From an uncultured Pseudomonadota bacterium (GTDB lineage: Bacteria > Pseudomonadota > Gammaproteobacteria > Steroidobacterales > Steroidobacteraceae): DNA of 62,250 nucleotides. Of the stretch, positions 26,641 through 60,836 are shown piece by piece (the first letter of the stretch is position 1; each line of letters begins with the position of its first letter). The notes below the pieces were generated by a model that ran no database searches, was not told the origin of the DNA, and saw only the letters and a program-made list of their open reading frames with translations. The stretch is taken from NCBI GenBank assembly GCA_903927005.1, contig CAIYLH010000131.1, forward strand, positions 1 through 62,250, read 5' to 3'. Both the position numbers and the translations under genes were made by a program.

Positions 26641-28221
26641 TCAGACGCGAGGCCAGCGCTCATTCCCAGACCGCATCATCTGCGTGGGCAGTCGAATGTC
26701 GTAGCGGCCGCGCACCAGTGCGTCGACGTCGCCGGCAAGATGGTCCGGGTAGTGACTGCCCATGATCTCGCGGACGCGGGTCTTGGCGATTGTCATGAGG
26801 TCCGGCGAGCCGCGGTACTCCCACTCGGACAGCGAGGTACGGTCGCCTACCTTCGGATAGAGGTACTCCGTTTCCATTAGCGACAGCGTCTGCGGCGCGC
26901 CCAGGTAGTGGGCCGGTCCCATTACGGTGCGTTCGATGACGTCATACGAAAGCGTTTCGTCGTTGACCTCAATGCCGCGCAATGAGCGTTGGATGGCGCC
27001 AATCAGGTCGTTGTCCATGAGCATCGACTCGAGCGAGCAGCCCATCAGACTGCCCATCATGCCGGCGGACTCGCAGATCATGTTGACGCCGGACAGCGCA
27101 CTCATCGCAATGGTCATGCCTTTTTCGTAGCCAGCCTGATAGTCGGGTCGCTTGGCGTCCGTCATGCCGGCGGCCGAGATGCCTGGCAGTTGAAAGTGCC
27201 GCGCGATCTGTGCCGCGGCCGCCTGCAGCACAGCTTCCTCGCCGCCGCCGCCGGTGAAGGCACCGGTGCGCAGATCGGCGACAAAGGTCCATGGGCCGAA
27301 GTCGACCGGACCGCCCGGGTTGATGAGGTTGACCAGTACGACGATGGCAAGCGCTTCGGCGGTGCTCTGCACAAGTGCTCCGGCCAGCGCGGCGGGCGCG
27401 GTGGCGCCGGCTTGCGGTGCGGTGCAGGCGGAGATCGGCAGGCCGCGCCGCGCGGCCTCGCAAAGCACGCCAGAGGTGTCGGGACCAAAGCGCAGCGGCG
27501 AGACGACCGGGCACACGCCGATCGCCGCGAAGGGCCGCTTACGGAAGGCACCCGGCGCGCCGAGTATCGAGTCCCACAGGTCCTCCACATCCCCGACCGT
27601 TGATGCTTCGGCGAGCGAAATGCTGAATGGTTTGGTGGTTGCCGCGGCACCAGCGTAGGCAATGTTTAGCGAGTGCAGGCGCGGGTCTTCGCAGATGTCG
27701 GTGGCGACCACCTGCTGGCCGCAGAAGTCGATGTGCTCCAGGAAGTCGCCCATGCGGAAGAAGTCGTACAGGTCGAGCAGTGTCGATGGCCGGTAGGAGC
27801 CGGTGTCCGGGTCGACGAAGCGGACCGCTTCGCCGGAGGTGGCGAAGTAAACCCGGTTGCCGCCCGAGCGGATCGTGCGCTGCTCATCGCGGCCGTGGTA
27901 GACGATCTCACGCGCGGCGTTGGCGATCAGATCCTCGACCAGCGAGCGCGGAAAGCACAGCCGACCGTTGCCATTGAGGTGAGCTCCCTTGGCGAGCGCG
28001 TAGTCGAGGATTTCGTCAGTGACGGCGCTGAAGCCGATGTTCGCCAGTACGTCGAGGGCCGTATCTGCGATGCGCTGTACGTCGCTGGCGCTCAGCGGCT
28101 GGTAGGTGCCGCCGGGCAGTCCCGGGTGAACGGCGGCCGACCGCCGCGTGGAGCGCCGTTCAGCGAGCCGGGATCCGCGCGTGCGTCCACCGCGTCCAGT
28201 GGAGGTTCCTGCGGTCGTCAT
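26641..28221 (-). CDS. MttB-like trimethylamine/quaternary amine methyltransferase (non-pyrrolysine)
   Basis: 526 residues of the trimethylamine:corrinoid methyltransferase superfamily (MttB/MtgB). Visible: a basic N-terminus, GSYRPSTLLDLYDFFRMGDFLEHIDFCGQQ, DVEDLWDSILGAPGAF, NMICESAGMMGSLMGCS and C-terminal LMTIAKTRVREIMGSHYPDHL. There is no in-frame amber codon, so it belongs to the non-pyrrolysine branch, whose studied members demethylate glycine betaine, proline betaine or carnitine. GAGGA precedes the ATG. It is divergent from a BetI-like regulator with a palindrome between. No corrinoid protein or reactivase gene is in the window. Confidence 0.85.
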   Translation of the reverse strand: MTTAGTSTGRGGRTRGSRLAERRSTRRSAAVHPGLPGGTYQPLSASDVQRIADTALDVLANIGFSAVTDEILDYALAKGAHLNGNGRLCFPRSLVEDLIANAAREIVYHGRDEQRTIRSGGNRVYFATSGEAVRFVDPDTGSYRPSTLLDLYDFFRMGDFLEHIDFCGQQVVATDICEDPRLHSLNIAYAGAAATTKPFSISLAEASTVGDVEDLWDSILGAPGAFRKRPFAAIGVCPVVSPLRFGPDTSGVLCEAARRGLPISACTAPQAGATAPAALAGALVQSTAEALAIVVLVNLINPGGPVDFGPWTFVADLRTGAFTGGGGEEAVLQAAAAQIARHFQLPGISAAGMTDAKRPDYQAGYEKGMTIAMSALSGVNMICESAGMMGSLMGCSLESMLMDNDLIGAIQRSLRGIEVNDETLSYDVIERTVMGPAHYLGAPQTLSLMETEYLYPKVGDRTSLSEWEYRGSPDLMTIAKTRVREIMGSHYPDHLAGDVDALVRGRYDIRLPTQMMRSGNERWPRV

Positions 28222-38006: not shown

Positions 38007-40100
38007 ATGGCCACCGTAAGCCACTTCCGTGCCTGCCCGCTTTGCGAGGCGATCTGTGGACTTGAGATAACGCACGAAGCGGGGCGGCTCACGGCAATCC
38101 GTGGCGACAAGGCCGACCCATTCAGTCGCGGTCACGTCTGCCCCAAGGGCAACGCGCTGATCGACCTCGAAGCCGACCCGGACCGGCTGCGCCAGCCGCT
38201 ACGGCGGCGCGGCAGCGATTGGGAGGAAATGCCGTGGGATGAGGCGCTGCAGGAAGCGGGTGAGCGCCTGGCAGCGGTCCAGCGGGCTCATGGCGCTGAT
38301 TCGGTTGCTGCCTACCTTGGTAACCCTAACGTCCATCATTTTGGGCACTCGGCGTACGTTCCGGCATTGCTACGGCAGCTGCGTACCCGCAACGTCTATT
38401 CGGCCTCGTCCGTCGACCAATGGCCCCACCAGCTGGTCGCGTGGGCGATGTACGGCCATCAGTTCCTGATCCCGCTGCCCGACGTGGATCGCACTGACTG
38501 GATGCTGATGCTGGGGGCCAACCCGGTAGCGTCGAACGGTAGCTTGATGACAGCACCGGGCATCGCCCGACGCCTGGAGCAGTTGGTCAAGCGCGGTCGT
38601 CTGGTCGTGGTCGACCCGCGTCTTAGCGAGACTGCGCAAATCGCCTCCGAACACGTGCCCATCCAGCCGGGAACCGACGTTTGGTTCCTGCTCGGCCTGC
38701 TCACCGCCCTGCGCCAGGCGGGACCGGCGCGTACTGCGCTTTACGAGGGGCGGTTCAGTGGCTTCGAGCAGGCGCTTGCAGCGACTGACGGCGTGACCGT
38801 CGTGGCGGCTGCAGGGCGCTGTGGTGTACCGGCAGAGGTTATCGAGCGGCTCGCGCTAGAGCTGTATGCGGCCCGGCGCGCTAGCATCTATGGCCGCATG
38901 GGCTTGTCGACCCAAGAACACGGCTCGTTGTGCCAGTGGCTACTGCAGTTGCTCAGCCTCTATACCGGCAATCTCGATCGCGAAGGCGGCTCGCTGCCGT
39001 GTGAGCCGGCCCTGCCGATGACCGGTCCAGGCACTGCGCGCGGACATCGCGCGCGCTTCAGCAGCCGCGTGCGCGGCCTGCCGGAGTTCGCCGGCGAACT
39101 GCCGGTAGCTGCGCTTGCTGAGGAAATCGCCACCCCAGGAGCGGGCCAGATCCGCGGATTGTTTACCTGTGCCGGCAATCCGGTACTGTCGACGCCGGCT
39201 GGTGCGCGCCTCGACGCGCTGCTTGCCGGGCTTGATTACTACGTCGCCGTGGACATCTATGTAAACGAGACCACTCGTCATGCGCACCTGATCCTGCCAC
39301 CCGCGTCGCCGCTGACCCAGTTTCACTACGATGCGGTGTTTAACGCACTCGCGGTACGCCGGGTTGCCCGTCTGAACACGCCTCTGCGGCCGATGGCTGT
39401 CACTGAGCGTGCCGATTGGCAGATCATTAACGGCCTGTGTGCGAGCCATGCTGCGGCGCAAGGCCAAGCCTTTACCGCATTGGCGGAACCACGGGTGATG
39501 ATAGCCGCTGCGCTCGCGCGCGGCCCCGACCGGCTGTCGATGGAAATGCTGGAGAGTGCCCCGCACGGACTGGACCTTGGACCGCTAGTGCCTTCGTTGT
39601 TACGACGGCTGCAGACCGACAGCGGCCAGATTGAGTGCGCGCCATCGTTCCTGATGGCGGCGCTTGCGCAACTGCGAGCGAGTCCGGCTATCGATGCTCC
39701 AGACGGTGAACTGCTGCTGATTGGCCGGCGCCATGTCCGTAGCAACAACTCCTGGATGCACAACGCGCCGCGTCTGGTGAAGGGCAAGCCCCGCCACCAG
39801 CTCGAGGTGCACCCCAGCGATCTGGTGGCGCGGTGCATCGCCGACGGAACCCGGGCACGTCTGCGTTCGAGCGTGGGGTCGATCGAGGTTGATGTGCAGG
39901 CAACGGAGGCCGTGCGCCCCGGCGTCGTCTGTCTGCCGCATGGGTACGGTCACGGCGGCGCGGGGGTACGGCTGGCGCGTGCCAGTCGTGTCGAGGGCGC
40001 CAGCTACAATGACCTTACCGATCCGTTGCGTGTGGACGGGCCGAGTGGCACGGCGGCCGTCAATGGCACACCGGTCTTCCTGGAGCGTCTGCAGCCCTGA
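38007..40100 (+). CDS. Molybdopterin oxidoreductase (4Fe-4S, bis-MGD family)
   Basis: 697 residues. N-terminal 4Fe-4S site C10, C13, C17 and C45 (CPLCEAICGLE, HVCPKG), then the molybdopterin domains and a C-terminal dinucleotide-binding domain (LEVHPSDL, ARLRSSVGSI, YNDLTDPLRVDGPSG). No Tat leader, so it is probably cytoplasmic, which makes direct reduction of the upstream periplasmic cytochromes unlikely. The family includes formate dehydrogenases and other oxidoreductases; the substrate cannot be read from sequence. It lies 49 bases after the cytochrome. Confidence 0.85.
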   Translation: MATVSHFRACPLCEAICGLEITHEAGRLTAIRGDKADPFSRGHVCPKGNALIDLEADPDRLRQPLRRRGSDWEEMPWDEALQEAGERLAAVQRAHGADSVAAYLGNPNVHHFGHSAYVPALLRQLRTRNVYSASSVDQWPHQLVAWAMYGHQFLIPLPDVDRTDWMLMLGANPVASNGSLMTAPGIARRLEQLVKRGRLVVVDPRLSETAQIASEHVPIQPGTDVWFLLGLLTALRQAGPARTALYEGRFSGFEQALAATDGVTVVAAAGRCGVPAEVIERLALELYAARRASIYGRMGLSTQEHGSLCQWLLQLLSLYTGNLDREGGSLPCEPALPMTGPGTARGHRARFSSRVRGLPEFAGELPVAALAEEIATPGAGQIRGLFTCAGNPVLSTPAGARLDALLAGLDYYVAVDIYVNETTRHAHLILPPASPLTQFHYDAVFNALAVRRVARLNTPLRPMAVTERADWQIINGLCASHAAAQGQAFTALAEPRVMIAAALARGPDRLSMEMLESAPHGLDLGPLVPSLLRRLQTDSGQIECAPSFLMAALAQLRASPAIDAPDGELLLIGRRHVRSNNSWMHNAPRLVKGKPRHQLEVHPSDLVARCIADGTRARLRSSVGSIEVDVQATEAVRPGVVCLPHGYGHGGAGVRLARASRVEGASYNDLTDPLRVDGPSGTAAVNGTPVFLERLQP

Positions 40101-40108
40101 GGGGACTG

Positions 40109-41293
40109 TCAGCCACTGACCACGAGCTTGACGAAGCGGGCAATCTCTTCGGTTGTGTTGTAGTAGTGCACAGAGGCGCGGACCGCACCCTGTAGCCGCC
40201 GCAGGTGAGGGTCCAGCGGCGCGGCGTCGGGAACCGTAACCGATACGTTGGCCCCTGCGGCACGCAGCCTGGCGGCCGTTGCCGGGGCTTGTTCGTCGGC
40301 CAGCGTGAACGTGACGATGCCGCTCTTAGCCGCGCCGCGGTCGTGGACCGTAACGCGCTGTTCAGCGCGCAGTGCGTCGCGCAGTGATGCGGCAAGCGAG
40401 ACGATTCGCGTCGAGACGGTATCTACCCCCAGGCTTAGCAGGTAGCGGACCGCTGCGCGCAGTCCGAGGCGACCTGCCACGTAGCTCTCCCATGTCTCGA
40501 AGCGACGCGCGTCGCTGCGCAGTTCGAAGCTGGCCGAAGGCAGTGCGCGCGCAGCGTGCATATCGATGAACGGTGGATCTAGCATCTGCAGCAGCGACTG
40601 CTCCACGTACAGGAAGCCAGTGCCCCGCGGGCCGCGCAGGAACTTGCGACCGGTGCCAGAGAGAACGTGGCAGCCGATTTTCTTGACGTCCAGCGGCAGT
40701 TGCCCCGCCGACTGACATGCGTCGAGGACATATATCAGTCCGTGCTCTCGCGCAATCCGGCCAACTTCAGCCGCCGGGTTGATCAGTCCATTGTGGGTCG
40801 GGGCGTGTGTCAGCGCGATTACCCGTGATTCGCTCGAGATTGCCCGTCGCAGCGCCTCGACGTCGATTTGTCCGTGTGCGTCGGATGGCACTACATCGAT
40901 GCCGACGTCCAGTCGCTTCGCCAACTGCAGCAGAGCGAGGTAGTTGGAGGCGTATTCGGAGTCGTGCGTCAGGATGCGATCACCAGCTCGCAATGGCAGG
41001 GCGTAGAACGCCATGTCCCATGCCCGCGTTGCGTTTTCGACGTAGGCGATCTCGCCACGATCACAGTTGAGCAGTTCGGCGAAGGCGTCGTAGAAGTCAT
41101 TAATGGCGGGCTGCGCGACCGTCTCGGCCTCATAACCGCCAATGCGTCGCTCGAGGTCAAGATGCGAAAATATAGCGTCGGAAACTGCGTTAGGCATCAG
41201 CGCCGCGCCGGCGTTGTTGAAATGGATCAGCCGCGCCGAGGCCGGAGTATCGGCGCGTACCTGCGCCAGATCAAAGGTGCCATGGTTACGCAT
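40109..41293 (-). CDS. Class V PLP aminotransferase/lyase
   Basis: 394 residues of the NifS-like class V fold. Cofactor Lys in SGTGRKFLRGPRGTG, Asp in YVLDACQSAGQ, His in LTHAPTHNGLINP; N-terminal FNNAGAALMP. Resembles isopenicillin-N-epimerase-like or C-S lyase proteins such as EgtE more than IscS, with no catalytic Cys loop visible. Its start overlaps the stop of the upstream secreted protein by one base. Function not assigned. Confidence 0.85.
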   Translation of the reverse strand: MRNHGTFDLAQVRADTPASARLIHFNNAGAALMPNAVSDAIFSHLDLERRIGGYEAETVAQPAINDFYDAFAELLNCDRGEIAYVENATRAWDMAFYALPLRAGDRILTHDSEYASNYLALLQLAKRLDVGIDVVPSDAHGQIDVEALRRAISSESRVIALTHAPTHNGLINPAAEVGRIAREHGLIYVLDACQSAGQLPLDVKKIGCHVLSGTGRKFLRGPRGTGFLYVEQSLLQMLDPPFIDMHAARALPSASFELRSDARRFETWESYVAGRLGLRAAVRYLLSLGVDTVSTRIVSLAASLRDALRAEQRVTVHDRGAAKSGIVTFTLADEQAPATAARLRAAGANVSVTVPDAAPLDPHLRRLQGAVRASVHYYNTTEEIARFVKLVVSG

Positions 41294-41751
41294 CAGTGGG
41301 TGGCCGTTCGCGGTCGCAATCTATCGCTCCAGTAGTCGCGCTCAGCAAAAAACGCGGCCGCCGCGTGAGCGCGGGGGATCGTCACGGCTGCGCCCTGGCC
41401 TGCCTGTGTGACGGCTTTGCGCAGCTTGCCGGCAGCCGATAGCAGATAGGCGTTGGTCACGCCACTGTCCTCCTCTACGTTCAACATCAGTATCTCGTGG
41501 CGATGAGAAATGCTGACGCAGAATCGGTGGGTGATGTGGCCGGTTTGGGCGACAAGTTCGTGTACAGGAGTCGCCGACTCGTCATTCGACAGTCCCAGTG
41601 GCACTGACAATATGGCCGGCAGTAGTGCGTCGGAGCCGGTCGCGAGTGCCTCGTCGATGACGCTGGTCAACGTCGCCGGCGTTGCCGCGGCCGCAGGTTG
41701 CGCCGGTGCCAGCGCGGCGACTGAGAGCAGTAGGAGTGCAAGTCGGTACAC
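41293..41751 (-). CDS. Secreted hypothetical protein
   Basis: 152 residues from the GTG at 41751 (GGAG upstream). Signal peptide YRLALLLLSVAALAPAQPAAA. The mature part is a small alpha/beta protein (RFCVSISHRHEILMLNVEEDSG). No family recognised. It sits between an SDR and the class V enzyme, all three leftward with tiny gaps or overlap, so probably one operon. Confidence 0.7.
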   Translation of the reverse strand: MYRLALLLLSVAALAPAQPAAAATPATLTSVIDEALATGSDALLPAILSVPLGLSNDESATPVHELVAQTGHITHRFCVSISHRHEILMLNVEEDSGVTNAYLLSAAGKLRKAVTQAGQGAAVTIPRAHAAAAFFAERDYWSDRLRPRTATH

Positions 41752-41776
41752 GGGGGGTCTCCGTCGGGATGCGCTG

Positions 41777-42562
41777 TCAGGACCGCAGGTAGCTGGCGCC
41801 GTTGACGTCGATGATGCCACCGGTCATGGCCGCCGGGGCGTCAAGCGCGCAATAGACTGCTGCGTGGGCCAGCTCGTCCGGCCGGCTCAGACGTCCGAGT
41901 GGATGTTGGGCGCGAATTCCGTCGCCGTCCGGCCCGGCGAGCGTTGCGGTCGCCATATCGGTCTCGACCCATCCCGGCGCTAGGCAGTAAACATAGACGC
42001 CGACGGGTGCGAGTGCGCGTGCGAGGGACTGACTCAGCGCGTTGAGGCCCGCTTTGCTGGCCGCATACGCCGGCGCGTCGGGCTCGCCACGGAACGCTCC
42101 GCGCGAGGAGATGTTCACGATTCGCCCGCGACCGAAGCCGCTCCCGTGCCGTTCGGCGCGCAGCGCCATTGCCTGCGCTGCCAGCAGCGATAGGTGAGCT
42201 GGTCCGTGCAGGTTGGTGTCGAGCGTGAGTCGCCAGGCTTGCAGCCAGTCGTGCGCGGTGCAGGCCAGCGGAGGATGGTTCAGGTAAATGCCCGCGTTGT
42301 TCACAAGGATGTCGACGGCGCCGAAGGTGCCTACAACCTCCTCCCACAGGCGTGTAGTCGCTGCAACATCCGCAAGGTCTGCGGCGAAAGTTGCGTGCCC
42401 GCTACCTGCAAGCTGGGACAGCGTCGCCTCTGCCGCGGACTGGTTGGAGTTGCAGTGGACAGCGATGCGCACGCCTCGCGCTGCCAGTTGACGGGCGATT
42501 TCGGCGCCGATGCCGCGTGATGCGCCGGTGACGAGGGCGACCGGACGGGAGTCGACAGACAT
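41777..42562 (-). CDS. Short-chain dehydrogenase/reductase
   Basis: 261 residues from the ATG at 42562 (GAGGA upstream). TGASRGIG, NNAG, a Ser in NISSRGAFRG and YAASK; C-terminal GGIIDVNGA. Resembles 3-oxoacyl-ACP reductase-like proteins. Leads a leftward group of three genes and is divergent from the transporter-tmpAB operon. Confidence 0.87.
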   Translation of the reverse strand: MSVDSRPVALVTGASRGIGAEIARQLAARGVRIAVHCNSNQSAAEATLSQLAGSGHATFAADLADVAATTRLWEEVVGTFGAVDILVNNAGIYLNHPPLACTAHDWLQAWRLTLDTNLHGPAHLSLLAAQAMALRAERHGSGFGRGRIVNISSRGAFRGEPDAPAYAASKAGLNALSQSLARALAPVGVYVYCLAPGWVETDMATATLAGPDGDGIRAQHPLGRLSRPDELAHAAVYCALDAPAAMTGGIIDVNGASYLRS

Positions 42563-42699
42563 CGGAGAAATCCTCGCGGAAGCACAGGAAGCCAAGCCTA
42601 TCATCGGTACGCGCCTGCCCGTGCCTGGATCCGTCCGGTCATGGCTCTCGTGCTAGGCTCGGTCGGGCGCAGTGATTGTCCTCAGGCGGAGAGTGGCGG

Positions 42700-44037
42700 A
42701 TGTCGTTGAGTCAGGAGCCGGAGGCCAGACCTATGGGCGTGCTCCTGTGGCGCCAGGTTGCCACCGTGTCGCTGCTGTTCTGTGGGTACGCGGCATATTA
42801 TTTCTGCCGCGCGGACTTTTCCGTTGCGATGCCGCTGCTGGTCGAGGACCTTGGCCGTCGCGGCGTCCCGCACGCAGAGGCAGTCGTTCGCCTGGGCGAA
42901 GTGTACTCGTTGGGTGTGCTTGCGTATGCGCTAGGGAAGCTTTTCCTGTGCGGTCTGGGCGATATGTGGGGAGGTCGCCGCAGTTTCCTGATTGGGCTGG
43001 GTGGAGCGGCTGCGTTCACGATGCTCTTCGCCTCCGGCGGTTCGCTGCCGATCTTCACGATTGCCTGGATAGGAAATCGTCTGACCCAGTCGATCGGCTG
43101 GGCCGGATTGCTGAAGGTCTGCTCGCGCTGGTTCCACTTCTCCCATCACGGCGCTGTCATTGGCATCCTGAGCCTGAGTTACTTCGCGGGCGACGTGGTT
43201 GCCCGCCAGTGCATGGGGCTGTTGATCGGTCTGGGCTACGACTGGCAGACGTTGTTTCGTTTCGCTGCCCTCGCGGCGGGTCTGATCTTCGTTGCGAATT
43301 ACCTCTTCTTGCGTAATTCCCGGGCCGAGCTTGGCTTTGCCGAAGCTGAGGCTAACCCTCTGAATCTTTATGCCGACGCTGATGCTGCGCCGCTGCGCTT
43401 GCGTACGCTGCTGTTGCCACTGCTGCGCAGTCGTGCGTTCCTGCTTGTCTGCCTCCTCTCGTTCGGCTGTACGGTCGTACGCGAGACGTTCAATATCTGG
43501 ACGCCTGTTTACCTGCGCGATGCGGTGGGTTACGACCCGGCGCATGCGGCTAGTCTTAGTGCGGTTTTTCCCGCGCTGGGCTTTGTGTCGGTGCTGGCTG
43601 CCGGCTTCGTTGGGGACCGCTGCGGGCCCAATGGCCGTCCGCTGCTGCTGCTCGGCGGGCTGGCGGCAACTGCTGCCTCCTTGCTTGGGTTGATGCTGCT
43701 GCGCCTGGATCTCGTCCCGCCCTGGGCCGCTGTCGTGCTGGTGGGTGTGGTGGCGTTCTGCCTGCTCGGCCCCTATTCGTATCTCGGTGGAGCTTTCGCG
43801 CTGGATTTTGGAGGCCACCGCGCCGGTGCGGTCGCCTCTGGAGTCATCGACGGCGTCGGTTACCTTGGTGGGGCACTCGCGGGTGACAGCGTCGCACGAA
43901 TCTCGGTTGCCTTTGGCTGGCGTGGAGTATTCGTCGTGCTTGCCTCGGTAGCCGCGGCCTCAGCAATTGCGGCTGCTGCGCTGTTCGCCCACCAGCGTCG
44001 GGTGCTCAGGACTGTTCGAGGGAAGCGTGATGATTAA
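42700..44037 (+). CDS. MFS transporter of the organophosphate:phosphate antiporter (OPA) type
   Basis: 445 residues with 12 hydrophobic segments. YAAYYFCRADFSVAMP near the N-terminus, and the helix pattern around GKLFLCGLGDMWGGRRSFL, match the GlpT/UhpT-like OPA family, which exchanges phosphorylated solutes for phosphate. GGAG precedes the ATG at 42700. Overlaps the dioxygenase gene by 8 bases, so it probably imports the substrate of that enzyme pair; an organophosphonate would fit the family (inference). Confidence 0.83.
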   Translation: MSLSQEPEARPMGVLLWRQVATVSLLFCGYAAYYFCRADFSVAMPLLVEDLGRRGVPHAEAVVRLGEVYSLGVLAYALGKLFLCGLGDMWGGRRSFLIGLGGAAAFTMLFASGGSLPIFTIAWIGNRLTQSIGWAGLLKVCSRWFHFSHHGAVIGILSLSYFAGDVVARQCMGLLIGLGYDWQTLFRFAALAAGLIFVANYLFLRNSRAELGFAEAEANPLNLYADADAAPLRLRTLLLPLLRSRAFLLVCLLSFGCTVVRETFNIWTPVYLRDAVGYDPAHAASLSAVFPALGFVSVLAAGFVGDRCGPNGRPLLLLGGLAATAASLLGLMLLRLDLVPPWAAVVLVGVVAFCLLGPYSYLGGAFALDFGGHRAGAVASGVIDGVGYLGGALAGDSVARISVAFGWRGVFVVLASVAAASAIAAAALFAHQRRVLRTVRGKRDD

Positions 44038-45160
44038 TACCCCGATCGATGTGAGCACGACAGCGGATGAGATGGTGGTTGCATGGTCCGACGGAACAAG
44101 ATCAGTGCACGCGAGTCTGTGGCTGCGCGATAACCGGCCGGAAGATCGCGATGCGCACAGTGGCCAGCGGCTAGTCGACATTGCCGATCTGCCCACGGCT
44201 CCGCGACTTGCGGGAGCAAAGATCGTGGCCGGCCGGATTGAGGTTGGCTGGCAGGACGGCACGCCCGTAACCGCCTATGACTCCGCCTGGCTGCAAGGGC
44301 AGTTACACGACGCCGCCGATGCGCGACCGGAGTTGCGGCCACGCCATTGGCTGGAGGGCTCGACCATTGATGGCAGGGGTGAGTTCGCGTGGTCGACGTT
44401 CGCTGAATTGCGCAGTAACGACGCGCTTCGTCTGCGCTGGCTGACGCGCCTGATCGAGGATGGCATTGGATTCATTTCGGCGGTGCCGTGCGTTGAAGGC
44501 GCGATACTCGAGGCATCCGCGCTCATCGGCCGCGTCGCCGAGACCAACTACGGGGTGTTGTTTGACGTGCGCTCGGTGGCGAAGCCGGAAAATCTTGCCT
44601 ATTCAGATTTCGGGCTCGGACTGCATACCGACAATCCGTATCGGGACCCGGTTCCTGGTTTCCAGGTGCTGCATGCGCTGGTCTCTACCCCTGATGGTGG
44701 TGACAGTTTGTTCGGCGATGGGTTTGCGCTGGCTGACTACCTGCGGGTAACTGAGCCGGCGGCGTTCGAGCTGCTGTCGAGGACGCAGGTGCCATTTCTC
44801 TACCAGTCCGCGGAAGCGGAGCTCTATTCGGAGAAGCCGCTGATCCAGGTCGACGCGGCTGGGCGGTTACGCGCTGTTCACTACAACAACCGTTCTATCG
44901 CGCCGTTGCATATGGTGCCCGACCAGCTTCTCGCTTTTTACGCTGCGTATCGACGCTTCGCACAACTGCTGCGTGAGACGCGCTTCCAGGTGCGCCTGAA
45001 GCTAGGCGACGGGGATCTTGTCGTGTTCGACAATCGTCGCACGCTGCATGGCAGGACGGCGTTTTCCTCTGAGCGCCATCCACGCCATTTGCAGGGCTGT
45101 TACCTGACGCGTGACAGCGTGCTCAGTCGGGCAGGACTCTTGCGTCGGGGTGTGCGATGA
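44030..45160 (+). CDS. tmpA: TmpA-like 2OG-Fe(II) dioxygenase (gamma-butyrobetaine hydroxylase family)
   Basis: 376 residues: an N-terminal DUF971/GBBH-type domain (WLRDNRPEDRD) and a TauD-like catalytic domain with H199 and D201 in GLHTDN and distal H340 in TLHGRTAF, then Arg for 2-oxoglutarate. The Zn-ligand cysteines of eukaryotic GBBH after WLRDN are absent. It is directly coupled (ATGA) to a PhnZ-like oxygenase. PhnY, the usual PhnZ partner, is a smaller phytanoyl-CoA-like enzyme, so this pair matches TmpA/TmpB better. TmpA hydroxylates 2-(trimethylamino)ethylphosphonate. The ATG at 44030 has GAGGGAAG upstream. Confidence 0.7.
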   Translation: MINTPIDVSTTADEMVVAWSDGTRSVHASLWLRDNRPEDRDAHSGQRLVDIADLPTAPRLAGAKIVAGRIEVGWQDGTPVTAYDSAWLQGQLHDAADARPELRPRHWLEGSTIDGRGEFAWSTFAELRSNDALRLRWLTRLIEDGIGFISAVPCVEGAILEASALIGRVAETNYGVLFDVRSVAKPENLAYSDFGLGLHTDNPYRDPVPGFQVLHALVSTPDGGDSLFGDGFALADYLRVTEPAAFELLSRTQVPFLYQSAEAELYSEKPLIQVDAAGRLRAVHYNNRSIAPLHMVPDQLLAFYAAYRRFAQLLRETRFQVRLKLGDGDLVVFDNRRTLHGRTAFSSERHPRHLQGCYLTRDSVLSRAGLLRRGVR

Positions 45161-45702
45161 GCGTCTTTGAGGAATTGGCCGCGCTCTATGCTGGCCGCGC
45201 ACTCGGCTCTTACTTCGGTGAGCAGGTGTCGATGCTTGAGCACGGCCTGCAGGCCGCCTGGTTTGCGACCCAGGACGCGGCGGCGCCGACCCTGGTCATC
45301 GCCGCGTTGCTGCACGACGTCGGTCATTTGGTGGAGGATGTCCCTGCTGACCTCGAAGATTGGCAGATGGATGCCCATCACGAGAACGTCGGTGCGTTAT
45401 GGCTGTCGCGGCATTTCGGCCGTGAGGTGACCGAGCCTGTTGCACTTCACGTTGCCGCCAAGCGTTATCTGTGCGCGACGGATGCGACCTACTACGCCCG
45501 TCTCAGCGCCGCCTCGGTCGTTACACTCGGGCTGCAGGGCGGTCCTATGAGTGGCGCCGAGGTTGCTGCTTTTGAGCGCAATCCGCACTATCGCGACGCC
45601 GTTCGCCTGCGTCAGTGGGACGATCAGGGCAAGCTGGCTGGTTTTTCGGCGCCGGGGTTCGAGGTCTATCGCCCCGTGATCGAGGCGGCGCTGCGCCGCT
45701 AA
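45157..45702 (+). CDS. tmpB: TmpB/PhnZ-like HD-domain mixed-valent di-iron oxygenase
   Basis: 181 residues. Residues line up with PhnZ at a near-constant offset: Y19 and E22 (Y24, E27 in PhnZ), H29, H53-D54, H75, H98 and K102, and a C-terminal Asp in WDDQGK. The HD ligands and the Y-x-x-E pair that mark C-P bond-cleaving oxygenases are therefore intact. These enzymes cleave 1-hydroxyphosphonates oxidatively to a carboxylate and phosphate; TmpB yields glycine betaine. Coupled by ATGA to the dioxygenase. PhnZ itself (2-aminoethylphosphonate) remains an alternative. Confidence 0.8.
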   Translation: MSVFEELAALYAGRALGSYFGEQVSMLEHGLQAAWFATQDAAAPTLVIAALLHDVGHLVEDVPADLEDWQMDAHHENVGALWLSRHFGREVTEPVALHVAAKRYLCATDATYYARLSAASVVTLGLQGGPMSGAEVAAFERNPHYRDAVRLRQWDDQGKLAGFSAPGFEVYRPVIEAALRR

Positions 45703-45858
45703 AGGCGGTCGGGTCGGGGCTGTCCCGGCGCGGCGGTAAGGATTAGCTGCGAGGTTCCCTGCGCGGACCGCGGCTTCCGCCCAGCAGGCGTCGGTCGGTA
45801 ACGGACGTTACAGTTCCCCAAAAAGCCGTTCCGGCGCTCTTGCGCGGGCCGCGCCAGT

Positions 45859-46926
45859 TCAGGCGGTGGGCGGCGTATCGCCGCCTGGGGCGGTCCTCCG
45901 GCCGGTTGCCCGACGGCCGGTCGAGCCGGGTGCGGCGCCGGATGCGCGGTCCATCAGGCCCTGTAGCTGAGCTCGTGCGCCATTGGAGATGGTCCCTAGC
46001 CTGGACTCGATCGCCGCCGCGTCCGGTCTTTCACCGCGCGTGTGTCGCTGCAGGGCCGCGCGCATCACTCGCAGGTGCTCGGCGGTCGTGCCGCAGCAAC
46101 CGCCTATGATCCGCGCGCCGGCGTCGAATGCCATGCATGCGTAGGTGGCCATCAGTTCCGGCGTGCCGTTGTATTGGATCGCGCCATTTACGTACTGGGG
46201 AATGCCGCAGTTCGCCTTGGCGACCAGCACGGCGGAGGGATCGGAGGCGGTAGCGAGGTTGAGGATAGAGGCAACCATTTCGGACGGGCCGACGCCGCAG
46301 TTACTGCCACAGGCGAGCAGCGCGTGGCTGCGGTGAATCGCGGCCAGTTCGCTGGGCATCAGCGACATCATCGTGCGCCCGTTGGTATCGAAGCTCAGCG
46401 TGCTGACCACGGGCAGGCCACTGCTGCGGGCACCTTCGATCGCAGCTTCGACCTCTTCACGGGATGACATTGTCTCGATCCAGAGCACGTCAGCGCCGCC
46501 CTCGGCGAGCGCGGCTGCCTGTTCGGCGAACGCCTCGCGGGCCGCATCAGCCGATAGGGGGCCAATGGGCTCCAGAATTTCGCCCGTCGGACCAATGCTG
46601 CCTGCCACCACCACCTCGCGGCCGCTCGCATCTGCGGCGGCACGGGCGATCCGTGCAGCGCTGACGTTCAGCTCGCGAATGCGTGTCTCGGCGTTGTGCA
46701 GCTTGAGCCGGTAGCGCGTGCCGCCAAAGCTGTTGGTGAGGATGATGTCCGCGCCCGCATCGACGAAGCTGGTGTGCAACGCGAGAATGCGATCGGGGTG
46801 GGAGATGTTCCAAAGCTCCGGCGCCTCGCCGGATACCAGGCCCATGTTGAAAAGGTTGCTGCCGGTGGCGCCATCGGCGAGTAGCCAGGGCCGCTGGGCT
46901 AGAAGGGTGGAGAGCCTGTCGGACAT
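45859..46926 (-). CDS. bmt: Betaine-homocysteine S-methyltransferase-like enzyme
   Basis: Homocysteine S-methyltransferase domain with LADGATGSNLFNMGL, TNSFGGTRYRL and Zn ligands in GSNCGVGP and GGCCGTT. It resembles bacterial Bmt, which methylates homocysteine from glycine betaine; S-methylmethionine-type enzymes are the alternative. Length 355 with a Pro/Gly/Ala-rich tail. The second of two ATGs (46926) has GAGG at 5-base spacing. It lies convergent with tmpB, 156 bases away, and would consume the betaine TmpAB makes (inference). Confidence 0.83.
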   Translation of the reverse strand: MSDRLSTLLAQRPWLLADGATGSNLFNMGLVSGEAPELWNISHPDRILALHTSFVDAGADIILTNSFGGTRYRLKLHNAETRIRELNVSAARIARAAADASGREVVVAGSIGPTGEILEPIGPLSADAAREAFAEQAAALAEGGADVLWIETMSSREEVEAAIEGARSSGLPVVSTLSFDTNGRTMMSLMPSELAAIHRSHALLACGSNCGVGPSEMVASILNLATASDPSAVLVAKANCGIPQYVNGAIQYNGTPELMATYACMAFDAGARIIGGCCGTTAEHLRVMRAALQRHTRGERPDAAAIESRLGTISNGARAQLQGLMDRASGAAPGSTGRRATGRRTAPGGDTPPTA

Positions 46927-46950
46927 CATGACCTCAACGACCAGAGAGGG

Positions 46951-59212: not shown

Positions 59213-59360
59213 TGCTATCTCGCTTTATACAGCTATGCCGCCGGTACGTAGCGCGCGTATGCTCGCGAGTCTAAAGCAATCGCCACCGGCTGGGCGATCA
59301 CGCACAGGGAAGGGGGGCGATTTGGAGCGCAAGGAACGTGTAGGCCATAGGCCGAAGGCT

Positions 59361-60836
59361 ATGGCGGCGCCGCAGGCGCCAGTCGCCATTCCCGCGCATG
59401 ATTTCGCAACGCGACCGTACGAGCCGTTGGTCGGCGATACCATCGATGTGCTGATCGAATCAGCCCTGGAGCTGCTGGCGGAGTCCGGTGTAGCGTTCGA
59501 GGTGGGCTCCGCAGCAGTGCATTATCTACGCGCTGGAGGCTGCGAGATTTCTGCAGACGGTGTCGTTCGCATGGATCGCGCGTTGGTGCGCAGTGCGCTC
59601 GCCTCGACCGCGAAACGTGTTCGTCTCTGGAACCGGCCTGGTGATCGATATATTGAGATCGACTGCCACCACACCTGGTTCATGCCCGGCATGACCTGTA
59701 TCAAGGTCTATGACCTTGAGACCGGTGAGCCTCGCAACAGTACGGCTGCGGATCTCGCCGCTATCACGCGACTGTCGGACGCGCTGCCAAACATTGACGG
59801 CGTGTGTATCGCTTGCAAGAACGTGGAGCGGGCAGATATCCACGGCGAGATCGAAGAATTTTCAATCATGGCGGCCAACACGACCAAGCCGCTTGAGTAC
59901 TTGTGCGAGCACCCCGCCTCGCTTGAGGTCGTGATAGAGATGGCCGCGGCGATTCGTGGCGGTGCGGCCCAGCTGCGCGAGAAGCCATATTTCCTGCAGC
60001 TCGTGACCCCGATGCCGCTTAACTATCACGCCGCGCACTCCGACCAGATCATCGCAGCAGCGCTGGCGGGCGTTCCGGTCAGCGTCGGCACCCTGCCGAT
60101 CGGTGGTGCCTCGACGCCCATCACGACGGCTGGCTGCATGGTGAACAGTCTTGCGACCGACTTTGCGGCGATGGTGCTCGCGCAACTGGTCGTGCCTGGT
60201 GCGTTCTGTATCGGCAGCTCTGACGTGTGTTTCATGGAGCCGGCAACGGGTGGGATCGGCAATGTGGCGCAGACGGCCCTTGCCGACATGGTGATGTGCC
60301 AGGTCCGCCGTCGCCTGGGACTGCCGTCGTTTACCGGCGCGGTGGGCTACTCGTCCGCCCGGCGCTTCAATCAGGATGCTGTGGCTGAGATTTCGTTCGG
60401 ATTGATGCAGGCGTTCTATAGCCGGCCAGCGACGCTGGATTATCTGGGCTCACTCGATCAGGGCCTGACGTTCTCGATGCATGCGCTCGTTCTCGGCGAC
60501 GACATCGCTGGGCTGCTGCGCACGCTTTGGGAGGGGGTGCAGATCGACGCCGATACGCTGGCGTTGTCACTTGCAAAGGAAGTCGGGCCGCGTGGCAACT
60601 ACCTCGCGCATCGCCATACGGTCAGTCATTGCCGGGAGAAGCTCTGGCCCAGTCGCTATTTCGGTGCGCGCCTTCCACTGAGTTCTGACGACCGCCCAGA
60701 TCAGGATCTGGTCGAGCGGATCGATGCCGACATGCGCGCGATGCTCGCAAATCACGTCCCGCAGCCGCTAGAGCCGACGGTGGCCCGAGCGCTCGCGGAC
60801 ATCCGCGAGCGTTTTTTCGCAAGTTATAAGGACTGA
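59361..60836 (+). CDS. MttB-like methyltransferase, second copy (non-pyrrolysine)
   Basis: About 491 residues from the ATG at 59361; a TTG at 59322 with AAGGGGGG upstream is a good alternative start. Corrinoid-methyltransferase superfamily features: FMPGMTCIKVYDLETGEPR, TTKPLEYLCEHPASLEVVIEMA, PMPLNYHAAHSDQIIAAALAG and VGTLPIGGASTPIT, and a C-terminal helix RALADIRERFFASYKD. No in-frame amber, so non-pyrrolysine. It is distinct from the copy at 26.6 kb, not a recent duplicate. Divergent from the TMADH-like gene with about 150 bases between. No corrinoid partner nearby. Confidence 0.82.
   Translation: MAAPQAPVAIPAHDFATRPYEPLVGDTIDVLIESALELLAESGVAFEVGSAAVHYLRAGGCEISADGVVRMDRALVRSALASTAKRVRLWNRPGDRYIEIDCHHTWFMPGMTCIKVYDLETGEPRNSTAADLAAITRLSDALPNIDGVCIACKNVERADIHGEIEEFSIMAANTTKPLEYLCEHPASLEVVIEMAAAIRGGAAQLREKPYFLQLVTPMPLNYHAAHSDQIIAAALAGVPVSVGTLPIGGASTPITTAGCMVNSLATDFAAMVLAQLVVPGAFCIGSSDVCFMEPATGGIGNVAQTALADMVMCQVRRRLGLPSFTGAVGYSSARRFNQDAVAEISFGLMQAFYSRPATLDYLGSLDQGLTFSMHALVLGDDIAGLLRTLWEGVQIDADTLALSLAKEVGPRGNYLAHRHTVSHCREKLWPSRYFGARLPLSSDDRPDQDLVERIDADMRAMLANHVPQPLEPTVARALADIRERFFASYKD

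Follow-up and report, generated by a model that had tools for sequence, protein, structure and literature searches.

Which phosphonate is broken down by an operon that joins an OPA-type permease to a TmpA/TmpB-like enzyme pair, and where does the product go? This question is raised by a contig of 62,250 nucleotides (CAIYLH010000131.1 of assembly GCA_903927005.1; C131 in our numbering, and the window hereafter) from an uncultured member of the Steroidobacteraceae, whose genome of 3.99 Mb is divided into 139 contigs and is 97.4% complete. The initial annotation had drawn a route from a trimethylated phosphonate through betaine to methionine. We find that the OPA, tmpA and tmpB genes probably form one operon using 2-(trimethylammonio)ethylphosphonate (TMAEP) or a closely similar compound, with betaine passing onward to methyl transfer of the MtgBCDE type, and put the probability of this reading at roughly 0.6. 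Gene order, family placement, active-site residues, the co-occurrence of the permease clade (OPA1) with tmpA in 148 genomes and the betaine machinery of the host are read directly from the sequences. L, G and C numbers denote loci, genomes and host contigs, respectively.

The genes concerned are listed in Table 1. The OPA gene and tmpA share 8 nt, and tmpA and tmpB share 4 nt (ATGA), so that the three look like one transcript, and a convergent PF02574 gene, annotated as Bmt, lies 156 nt past tmpB. E-values were 3.6e-104 for TmpA (NF049936), 3.2e-61 for Phn-HD (TIGR03276), 1.8e-41 for OPA (TIGR00881) and 2.5e-142 for the PF02574 gene (NF005718); as these values are low and relatives show the same gene order, the gene set is not a chance assembly. 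Open reading frames, profile matches and motif residues confirmed the layout first described, with three overlapping rightward genes, a convergent methyltransferase-like gene and the motifs named for them. A search for PHO boxes in the window gave 13 matches vs. 13.6 expected, and none in the gap before the operon (42605-42699).

Table 1. Features of the window referred to in the text.
Feature	Position	Strand	Remarks
OPA-type MFS permease (OPA1 clade)	42700..44037	+	ATG at 42700, stop at 44037; 445 amino acids; proposed TMAEP importer
TmpA-like Fe(II)/2-oxoglutarate dioxygenase	44030..45160	+	376 amino acids; proposed C1 hydroxylation of the phosphonate
TmpB/PhnZ-type HD-domain oxygenase	45157..45702	+	181 amino acids; proposed C-P bond cleavage
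PF02574 homocysteine S-methyltransferase, annotated Bmt	45859..46929	-	356 amino acids; best read as MtgE
SDR-family oxidoreductase	41777..42604	-	divergent from the OPA gene; PF00106 3.1e-46
Class-V pyridoxal phosphate (PLP) enzyme	40109..41293	-	same divergent cluster as the SDR gene; PF00266 7.4e-54
MttB-family (trimethylamine/quaternary-amine methyltransferase) gene	26719..28185	-	
MttB-family (trimethylamine/quaternary-amine methyltransferase) gene	59352..60803	+	

Neighbourhoods were counted in 22 loci of relatives (L029-L050) and in 80 tmpA loci (L059-L138), the latter being the best 80 matches from a scan with TmpA-clade peptides, so that this sample favours TmpA-like proteins. Titles of the 80 loci cover Pseudomonadota, Acidobacteriota, Actinomycetota and Chloroflexota; the tmpA clade of the window comprises 36 of them (L059-L093 and L095), and 44 lie outside it. 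Co-occurrence was followed in 148 genomes, the window's own included, of which 23 have this clade and 125 do not. Some contigs are common to the locus collection and the genome set, and Fisher p-values on the 148 genomes are not counted as evidence since the genomes are related. The nearest tmpA kin are metagenome-assembled genomes (MAGs) titled Proteobacteria or Gammaproteobacteria, one of them Steroidobacteraceae; isolate names of some kin (palsa, fen, bog) hint at peat.

The dioxygenase scored 348.5 bits with the TmpA model NF049936 (cut-off 400) vs. 300.6 bits with TIGR02409, the model of gamma-butyrobetaine hydroxylase (GBBH; cut-off 414.75). Its best match in a PDB sequence search was TmpA 6npb with 229.7 bits, human BBOX reaching 137.2, and for its fold model (AlphaFold2, pLDDT 91.5) Foldseek ranked TmpA chains 1 to 3 and then BBOX. 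The protein contains the H199-x-D201 ... H340 triad and an aromatic cage (Y174/F178/Y191/Y358) at the positions that we take to hold the trimethylammonium group in TmpA. All three phosphonate ligands of TmpA, N187, N287 and R288 according to passages of PMC9296572, are kept as N188, N287 and R288, while BBOX has Ala in place of R288. Among 82 aligned rows from the tmpA loci, R288 was present in all 82, N188 in 80 and N287 in 65 (Ser in 15). A tree of 92 rows placed the window protein in a 36-row branch (support 99), nested in an 81-row branch (SH-aLRT 85) that holds reference TmpA and excludes BBOX, two other distant rows and eight more distant paralogues (L051-L058), of which seven have Asp at N188 and four have Arg at 288. 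The TmpA-like call made earlier was thus checked against clading with other GBBH proteins, and the tree joins the dioxygenase to reference TmpA. Profile, PDB search, tree, fold and the N188/N287/R288 set agree in making the dioxygenase a divergent member of the TmpA type and not a GBBH; having TmpA-type features at less than 400 bits, it would work like TmpA and is not filed as a curated equivalog. On plasmids, TmpA copies occurred in 40 records, each of less than 60% identity.

The HD protein carries Y19-x-x-E22 and the invariant H29, H53-D54, H75, H98 and D155, which are presumably the iron ligands. It scored 206.0 bits with TIGR03276 (cut-off 214.6), 191.4 with the TmpB model NF049941 (300) and 160.3 with the PhnZ1 model NF052439 (300), and in the PDB search TmpB 6npa (132.5 bits) came ahead of PhnZ 4mlm (115.4). 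The YxxE loop and the HD motif are as described in passages of PMC8177086. A 115-row tree grouped the protein with 34 TmpB-like rows from its kin (support 96), at a path of 1.82 to TmpB and 2.03 to PhnZ. The tree did not join it to PhnZ, but the node that it shares with reference TmpB had a support of just 55. By score the protein is nearer TmpB than PhnZ, its tree position being weakly supported. tmpB adjoins tmpA in 79 of the 80 loci, with the order tmpB-tmpA in L104. The exception is L126 (1796-2887), where no tmpB partner was found for tmpA. At L050 (29-943), where tmpA is cut by the contig start, no tmpB could be found downstream.

The reference pair, TmpA/TmpB of Leisingera caerulea (6npb, 6npa), shares with the window the adjacency of a GBBH-type 2-oxoglutarate dioxygenase and an HD oxygenase, the metal ligands, the aromatic cage, the N187/N287/R288 set and the YxxE loop. 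In contrast, the window proteins are about 35% (TmpA) and 40% (TmpB) identical to it, form their own clade, score below the cut-offs and are partnered by an OPA permease. The text of PMC10590968 gives TmpA/TmpB as the only described breakdown route for trimethyl-2-aminoethylphosphonate as of 2023. Sequence evidence supports a TmpA/TmpB-type pair in the window that would act on a trimethylated aminoethylphosphonate.

An alternative is that the pair acts mainly on another phosphonate, such as 2-aminoethylphosphonate (2-AEP), its mono- or dimethyl form, or a different quaternary phosphonate. The missed TmpA and TmpB cut-offs, the 36-row branch of the dioxygenase and the Ser found for N287 would fit this, as would a second OPA1 copy in G080 (L246). 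This copy is 58% identical to that of the window, and its gene closes a phnW-phnA-phnY operon for 2-AEP (PhnW 569.7 bits, cut-off 296; PhnA 612.2, cut-off 407.6; phosphonoacetaldehyde dehydrogenase 845.2, cut-off 635.7). However, cage and phosphonate residues match TmpA, and MttB-family genes 1.3-2.4 kb from tmpA in 3/36 clade loci (L076, L080, L085) hint at a quaternary amine product. The host also already has homologues of PhnW (466 bits, cut-off 360.8), PhnA and PhnY for 2-AEP on C124, 77-81% identical to those of L246, which gives it a phosphonate route besides tmpAB. We consider the use of another phosphonate unlikely. Homologues of phnW, phnA and phnY also stand upstream of tmpAB in 4/80 loci, directly in L106, L108 and L130 and across a LysR-like gene in L105, with 50-52%, 64-67% and 67-69% identity, respectively, to those of L246.

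The permease of the operon matched TIGR00881 with 142.5 bits, short of the 407.75 required for this subfamily (named PgtP), and PF07690 with an E-value of 2.1e-34. Its PDB sequence neighbours are SLC37A4 and GlpT, and Foldseek matched its fold model (pLDDT 86.6) best to human G6PT/SLC37A4, with GlpT at rank 15. GlpT residues R45, R269, K80, Y38, Y42, Y76, W138 and Y393 are retained, and H165 is replaced by Tyr, N162 by Ser and E299 by Pro. In an alignment to E. coli GlpT, R45 and R269, which we take to be the phosphate-binding arginines, were found in all 28 rows and K80 in the OPA1 rows, with Tyr at H165 and Pro at E299 in OPA1. The protein thus has both the MFS fold and the two arginines of an OPA-type permease.

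OPA1 adjoins tmpAB in 30/36 clade loci and in none of the 44 others. It lies upstream of tmpA in 28 of the 30, downstream of tmpB in L074 and, past a HAD domain, in L079; the L092 contig starts inside tmpA. OPA1 was found in 19/148 genomes, and all 19 carry the tmpA clade. For 12 high-scoring tmpA genes of the phylum (L143-L154), the surrounding 1.5 kb or so showed no OPA permease. This clade linkage supports the proposal that the permease is a phosphonate importer partnering TmpA and TmpB, and a TmpA/TmpB variant that has its own permease clade is well supported, the pathway itself being already known. Outside the clade, a homologue of 49% identity occurs with tmpAB in an Acidobacteriota MAG, and, on a plasmid of Hymenobacter, one of 38% identity adjoins a gene annotated as Phn-HD oxygenase. 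At the plasmid locus (L140:4962-7138), SusC/SusD genes also adjoin the OPA homologue, and a sodium/phosphate symporter and PhoX are close by.

The permease could instead move another organophosphate, such as phosphocholine or glycerol 3-phosphate, or just 2-AEP, and stand beside tmpAB by chance. OPA proteins generally carry sugar phosphates and glycerol 3-phosphate, and the structural neighbours of OPA1 are glucose-6-phosphate transporters. Against this, OPA1 was never found without the tmpA clade in the 148 related genomes, although 4/23 tmpA-clade genomes have the clade without OPA1; its second copy stands with PhnWAY in G080, and the 38% and 49% homologues likewise stand by Phn-HD and tmpAB genes. 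Another cargo is for these reasons quite unlikely, and import of TMAEP remains our preferred role for OPA1.

That an OPA transporter for this substrate would be new was only partly upheld. In open-licence PMC papers we found no importer for the trimethylated phosphonate, but an OPA permease does serve 2-AEP, since AepP, a GlpT-related OPA permease of Pseudomonas putida BIRD-1, is reported in passages of PMC8316502 to be required for growth on 2-AEP as nitrogen source. AepP resembles OPA1 as an OPA-family MFS protein for aminoethylphosphonate that is sited with phosphonate-degrading genes. As stand-ins for AepP we used three OPA proteins near phnW (L219-L221, among 20 phnW regions), taken as orthologues by synteny alone; these are just 25-28% identical to OPA1 and have K/Q/E at GlpT positions 46/80/299, where the window OPA1 has A/K/P. 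A plasmid search for AepP-like proteins returned OPA proteins of at most 36% identity only. A different transport arrangement was seen in L100 (Kitasatospora), in which the genes after tmpAB are one judged GntR-like by eye and those of an ABC transporter whose binding protein is of PF13343, the family to which AepX also belongs; regulator/PF13343-ABC clusters of this type occur in up to eight actinobacterial loci among L100-L138.

OPA1 might further be a TMAEP:phosphate antiporter, in which the phosphate released by TmpB drives the next phosphonate in. We offer this as a tentative and rather doubtful idea. If OPA1 swaps its substrate for phosphate as GlpT does, the operon would bring no net gain of phosphorus, so that the phosphate supply first proposed for the cluster is no more than a possibility.

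The convergent gene was expected to encode an enzyme that methylates homocysteine directly from glycine betaine, in this case the betaine released by TmpB. NCBIfam names the family accordingly as betaine-homocysteine methyltransferase (BHMT; NF005718, 474.1 bits, cut-off 338), the protein shares the PF02574 fold and keeps Asp26, Trp44, Phe76 and Glu159 of human BHMT (PDB chain 1umy), and the gene adjoins tmpB here and in L045, L046 and L047. However, Gly and Thr stand where human BHMT has Tyr77 and Tyr160, which we take to be betaine-binding residues; T. maritima MetH has the same pair, as do the homologues of L031, L045, L046 and L047. In the PDB search T. maritima MetH was the best match, with BHMT far lower. 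In the host genome MetE had no match and full-length MetH was not found, an absence that is not certain at its completeness; matches to the MetH model were confined to a corrinoid and a pterin piece on C47, the 'Bmt' gene and weak pieces on C59, the 'Bmt' gene being the sole strong match to the homocysteine part. A homologue of the S. meliloti type without the betaine-binding residues has been reassigned as MtgE, as passages of PMC12478193 state. Direct methylation from betaine is thus not borne out and is very unlikely.

Instead, the host combines a PF02574 protein without betaine residues with MtgC-, MtgD-, RamA- and DUF1638-type genes elsewhere in its genome. The Gly/Thr swap, the lack of MetE and full MetH matches, and the Mtg-, RamA-, MttB- and dimethylglycine dehydrogenase (DMGDH)-like genes indicate that 'Bmt' is most likely MtgE, the homocysteine module of a cobalamin-dependent MtgBCDE system, and not a direct BHMT. 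The betaine-to-methionine route may still operate, via MtgB and MtgC. The host resembles MtgBCDE of Ruegeria pomeroyi (PMC12478193) and the Phaeobacter inhibens split methionine synthase (described in passages of PMC5764234) in having separate genes for PF02574, corrinoid, pterin, DUF1638 and RamA-like proteins in a genome that yielded neither a full MetH nor a MetE; it differs in having its homocysteine module beside tmpB, the other modules lying on C47. Related arrangements include an MtgE gene within about 5 kb of tmpB in L031 and L032 and, at 8-11 kb on the same contig, in G001, G005 and G008. L110 carries tmpA-tmpB together with a pair of small genes that look AroQ-like by eye, a DMGDH-like gene and a homocysteine-methyltransferase-like gene that has neither BHMT Tyr77 nor Tyr160.

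The cluster on C47 runs in the order DMGDH-like gene, AraC/DJ-1 regulator (presumably GbdR-like), corrinoid protein, DUF1638, two MTHFR-type genes, pterin-binding protein, RACo/RamA-like activator and MttB-family gene, and the host genome has ten MttB-family matches, two of them within the window. In the pathway that we infer, with regard to substrates, reactions, direction of transport and the tie of 'Bmt' to the operon, TMAEP would be brought in by OPA1 and hydroxylated at C1 by the TmpA-type enzyme at the expense of 2-oxoglutarate and O2. Cleavage of the C-P bond by the TmpB-type diiron enzyme would then give glycine betaine and inorganic phosphate. MttB-family (MtgB-like) proteins would demethylate glycine betaine onto an MtgC-like corrinoid protein, from which the methyl group would pass to tetrahydrofolate via an MtgD-like protein or to homocysteine via the 'Bmt' product, MtgE. 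Dimethylglycine and sarcosine would go to DMGDH- and sarcosine-oxidase-like enzymes.

In some relatives, trimethylation might take place inside the cell, a phosphoethanolamine-N-methyltransferase-like enzyme acting on imported 2-AEP, so that the operon would yield glycine betaine from 2-AEP. The gene for such a protein directly follows tmpB in 3/36 clade loci (L075, L081, L089) and, in the partly overlapping set L029-L050, in three relatives (L040:8436-9239, L043:1017-1820, L048:8503-9336); the best PDB match of the product is plant phosphoethanolamine N-methyltransferase (1.1e-28), the host has a homologue of 65% identity (C59:31394-32173), and the gene occurs in 18/23 tmpA-clade genomes vs. 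5/125 others. Yet the neighbours of the C59 gene are sarcosine-oxidase-like, class-V PLP and DAO genes, and at 14 further loci of relatives tmpAB was adjacent in none, class-V PLP in nine, DAO in six and sarcosine oxidase in five; three S-adenosylmethionine would also be spent per betaine. We consider internal methylation highly improbable. We rejected as scarcely credible the idea that a hydroxylase for gamma-butyrobetaine, or another of the GBBH family, has been mistaken for TmpA here, since the still sizeable TIGR02409 score of the dioxygenase is outweighed by the lower rank of this family in profile, PDB and Foldseek comparisons, its separation in the tree, R288 where BBOX has Ala, and the adjacency of tmpB and tmpA in 79 of 80 loci.

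Several observations weigh against the TMAEP operon with onward methyl transfer. The dioxygenase scores below the curated TmpA cut-off, as does its relative in L035 (341.6 bits), the HD protein misses the curated cut-offs of both TmpB and Phn-HD, and the node joining it to reference TmpB is the poorly supported one given above. The pocket is not fixed among relatives, as N287 varies and Y191 is Phe in 25 of the 82 rows and Asn in 3, and R288 alone is not diagnostic, being present also in four of the eight distant paralogues. The four tmpA-clade genomes without OPA1 are G046, which is cut at a contig end, G074 and G087, with another OPA type downstream, and G085, with none. On the side of methyl transfer, MtgE-type genes occur in 18/125 genomes without the tmpA clade and in 20/23 with it (in 3 they were not found), the gene stands directly beside tmpB in just 3/22 relatives, so that this neighbourhood may be chance, and the corrinoid protein of C47, nearest MtgC, is below the NCBIfam cut-off (210.8 vs. 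370).

Other genes also surround the operon. Across from its start, the window has a divergent cluster (38007-42604) of a molybdopterin oxidoreductase-like gene (by eye), the class-V PLP enzyme, a small protein and the SDR, which is kept in some same-genus relatives; the SDR adjoins OPA1 in 8/22 loci of relatives, and the class-V PLP gene is found together with SDR-OPA1-TmpAB in 5/22. At L039:5667-6905 and L044:5897-7138, TmpB carries a HAD hydrolase domain fused at its C-terminal end, and the clusters also include a dicarboxylate-type symporter and an OPA protein of another type; L071 and L079 resemble these, and HAD and DAACS genes stand beside tmpAB in all four. At L042:4716-5597 a PhyH-type dioxygenase, weakly like methylphosphonate hydroxylase, is divergent from OPA1-tmpA-tmpB.

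Results of this analysis make the OPA1 clade a ready candidate importer for trimethyl-2-aminoethylphosphonate. They also indicate that a 'Bmt' annotation can mislead the drawing of pathways, as the same gene content may stand for another mechanism, corrinoid methyl transfer. The MtgE reading changes the earlier scheme in kind, since methionine would come through cobalamin, and it raises the question whether betaine derived from phosphonate supplies the methionine and folate pools. As far as our searches of open-licence PMC papers reach, both the permease and the corrinoid methyl-transfer link are new. If the antiporter idea holds true, the operon would harvest betaine, nitrogen and methyl groups and return phosphate to the surroundings, joining phosphonate breakdown to one-carbon metabolism via MtgBCDE; such bacteria would then release phosphate and would not be phosphorus scavengers.

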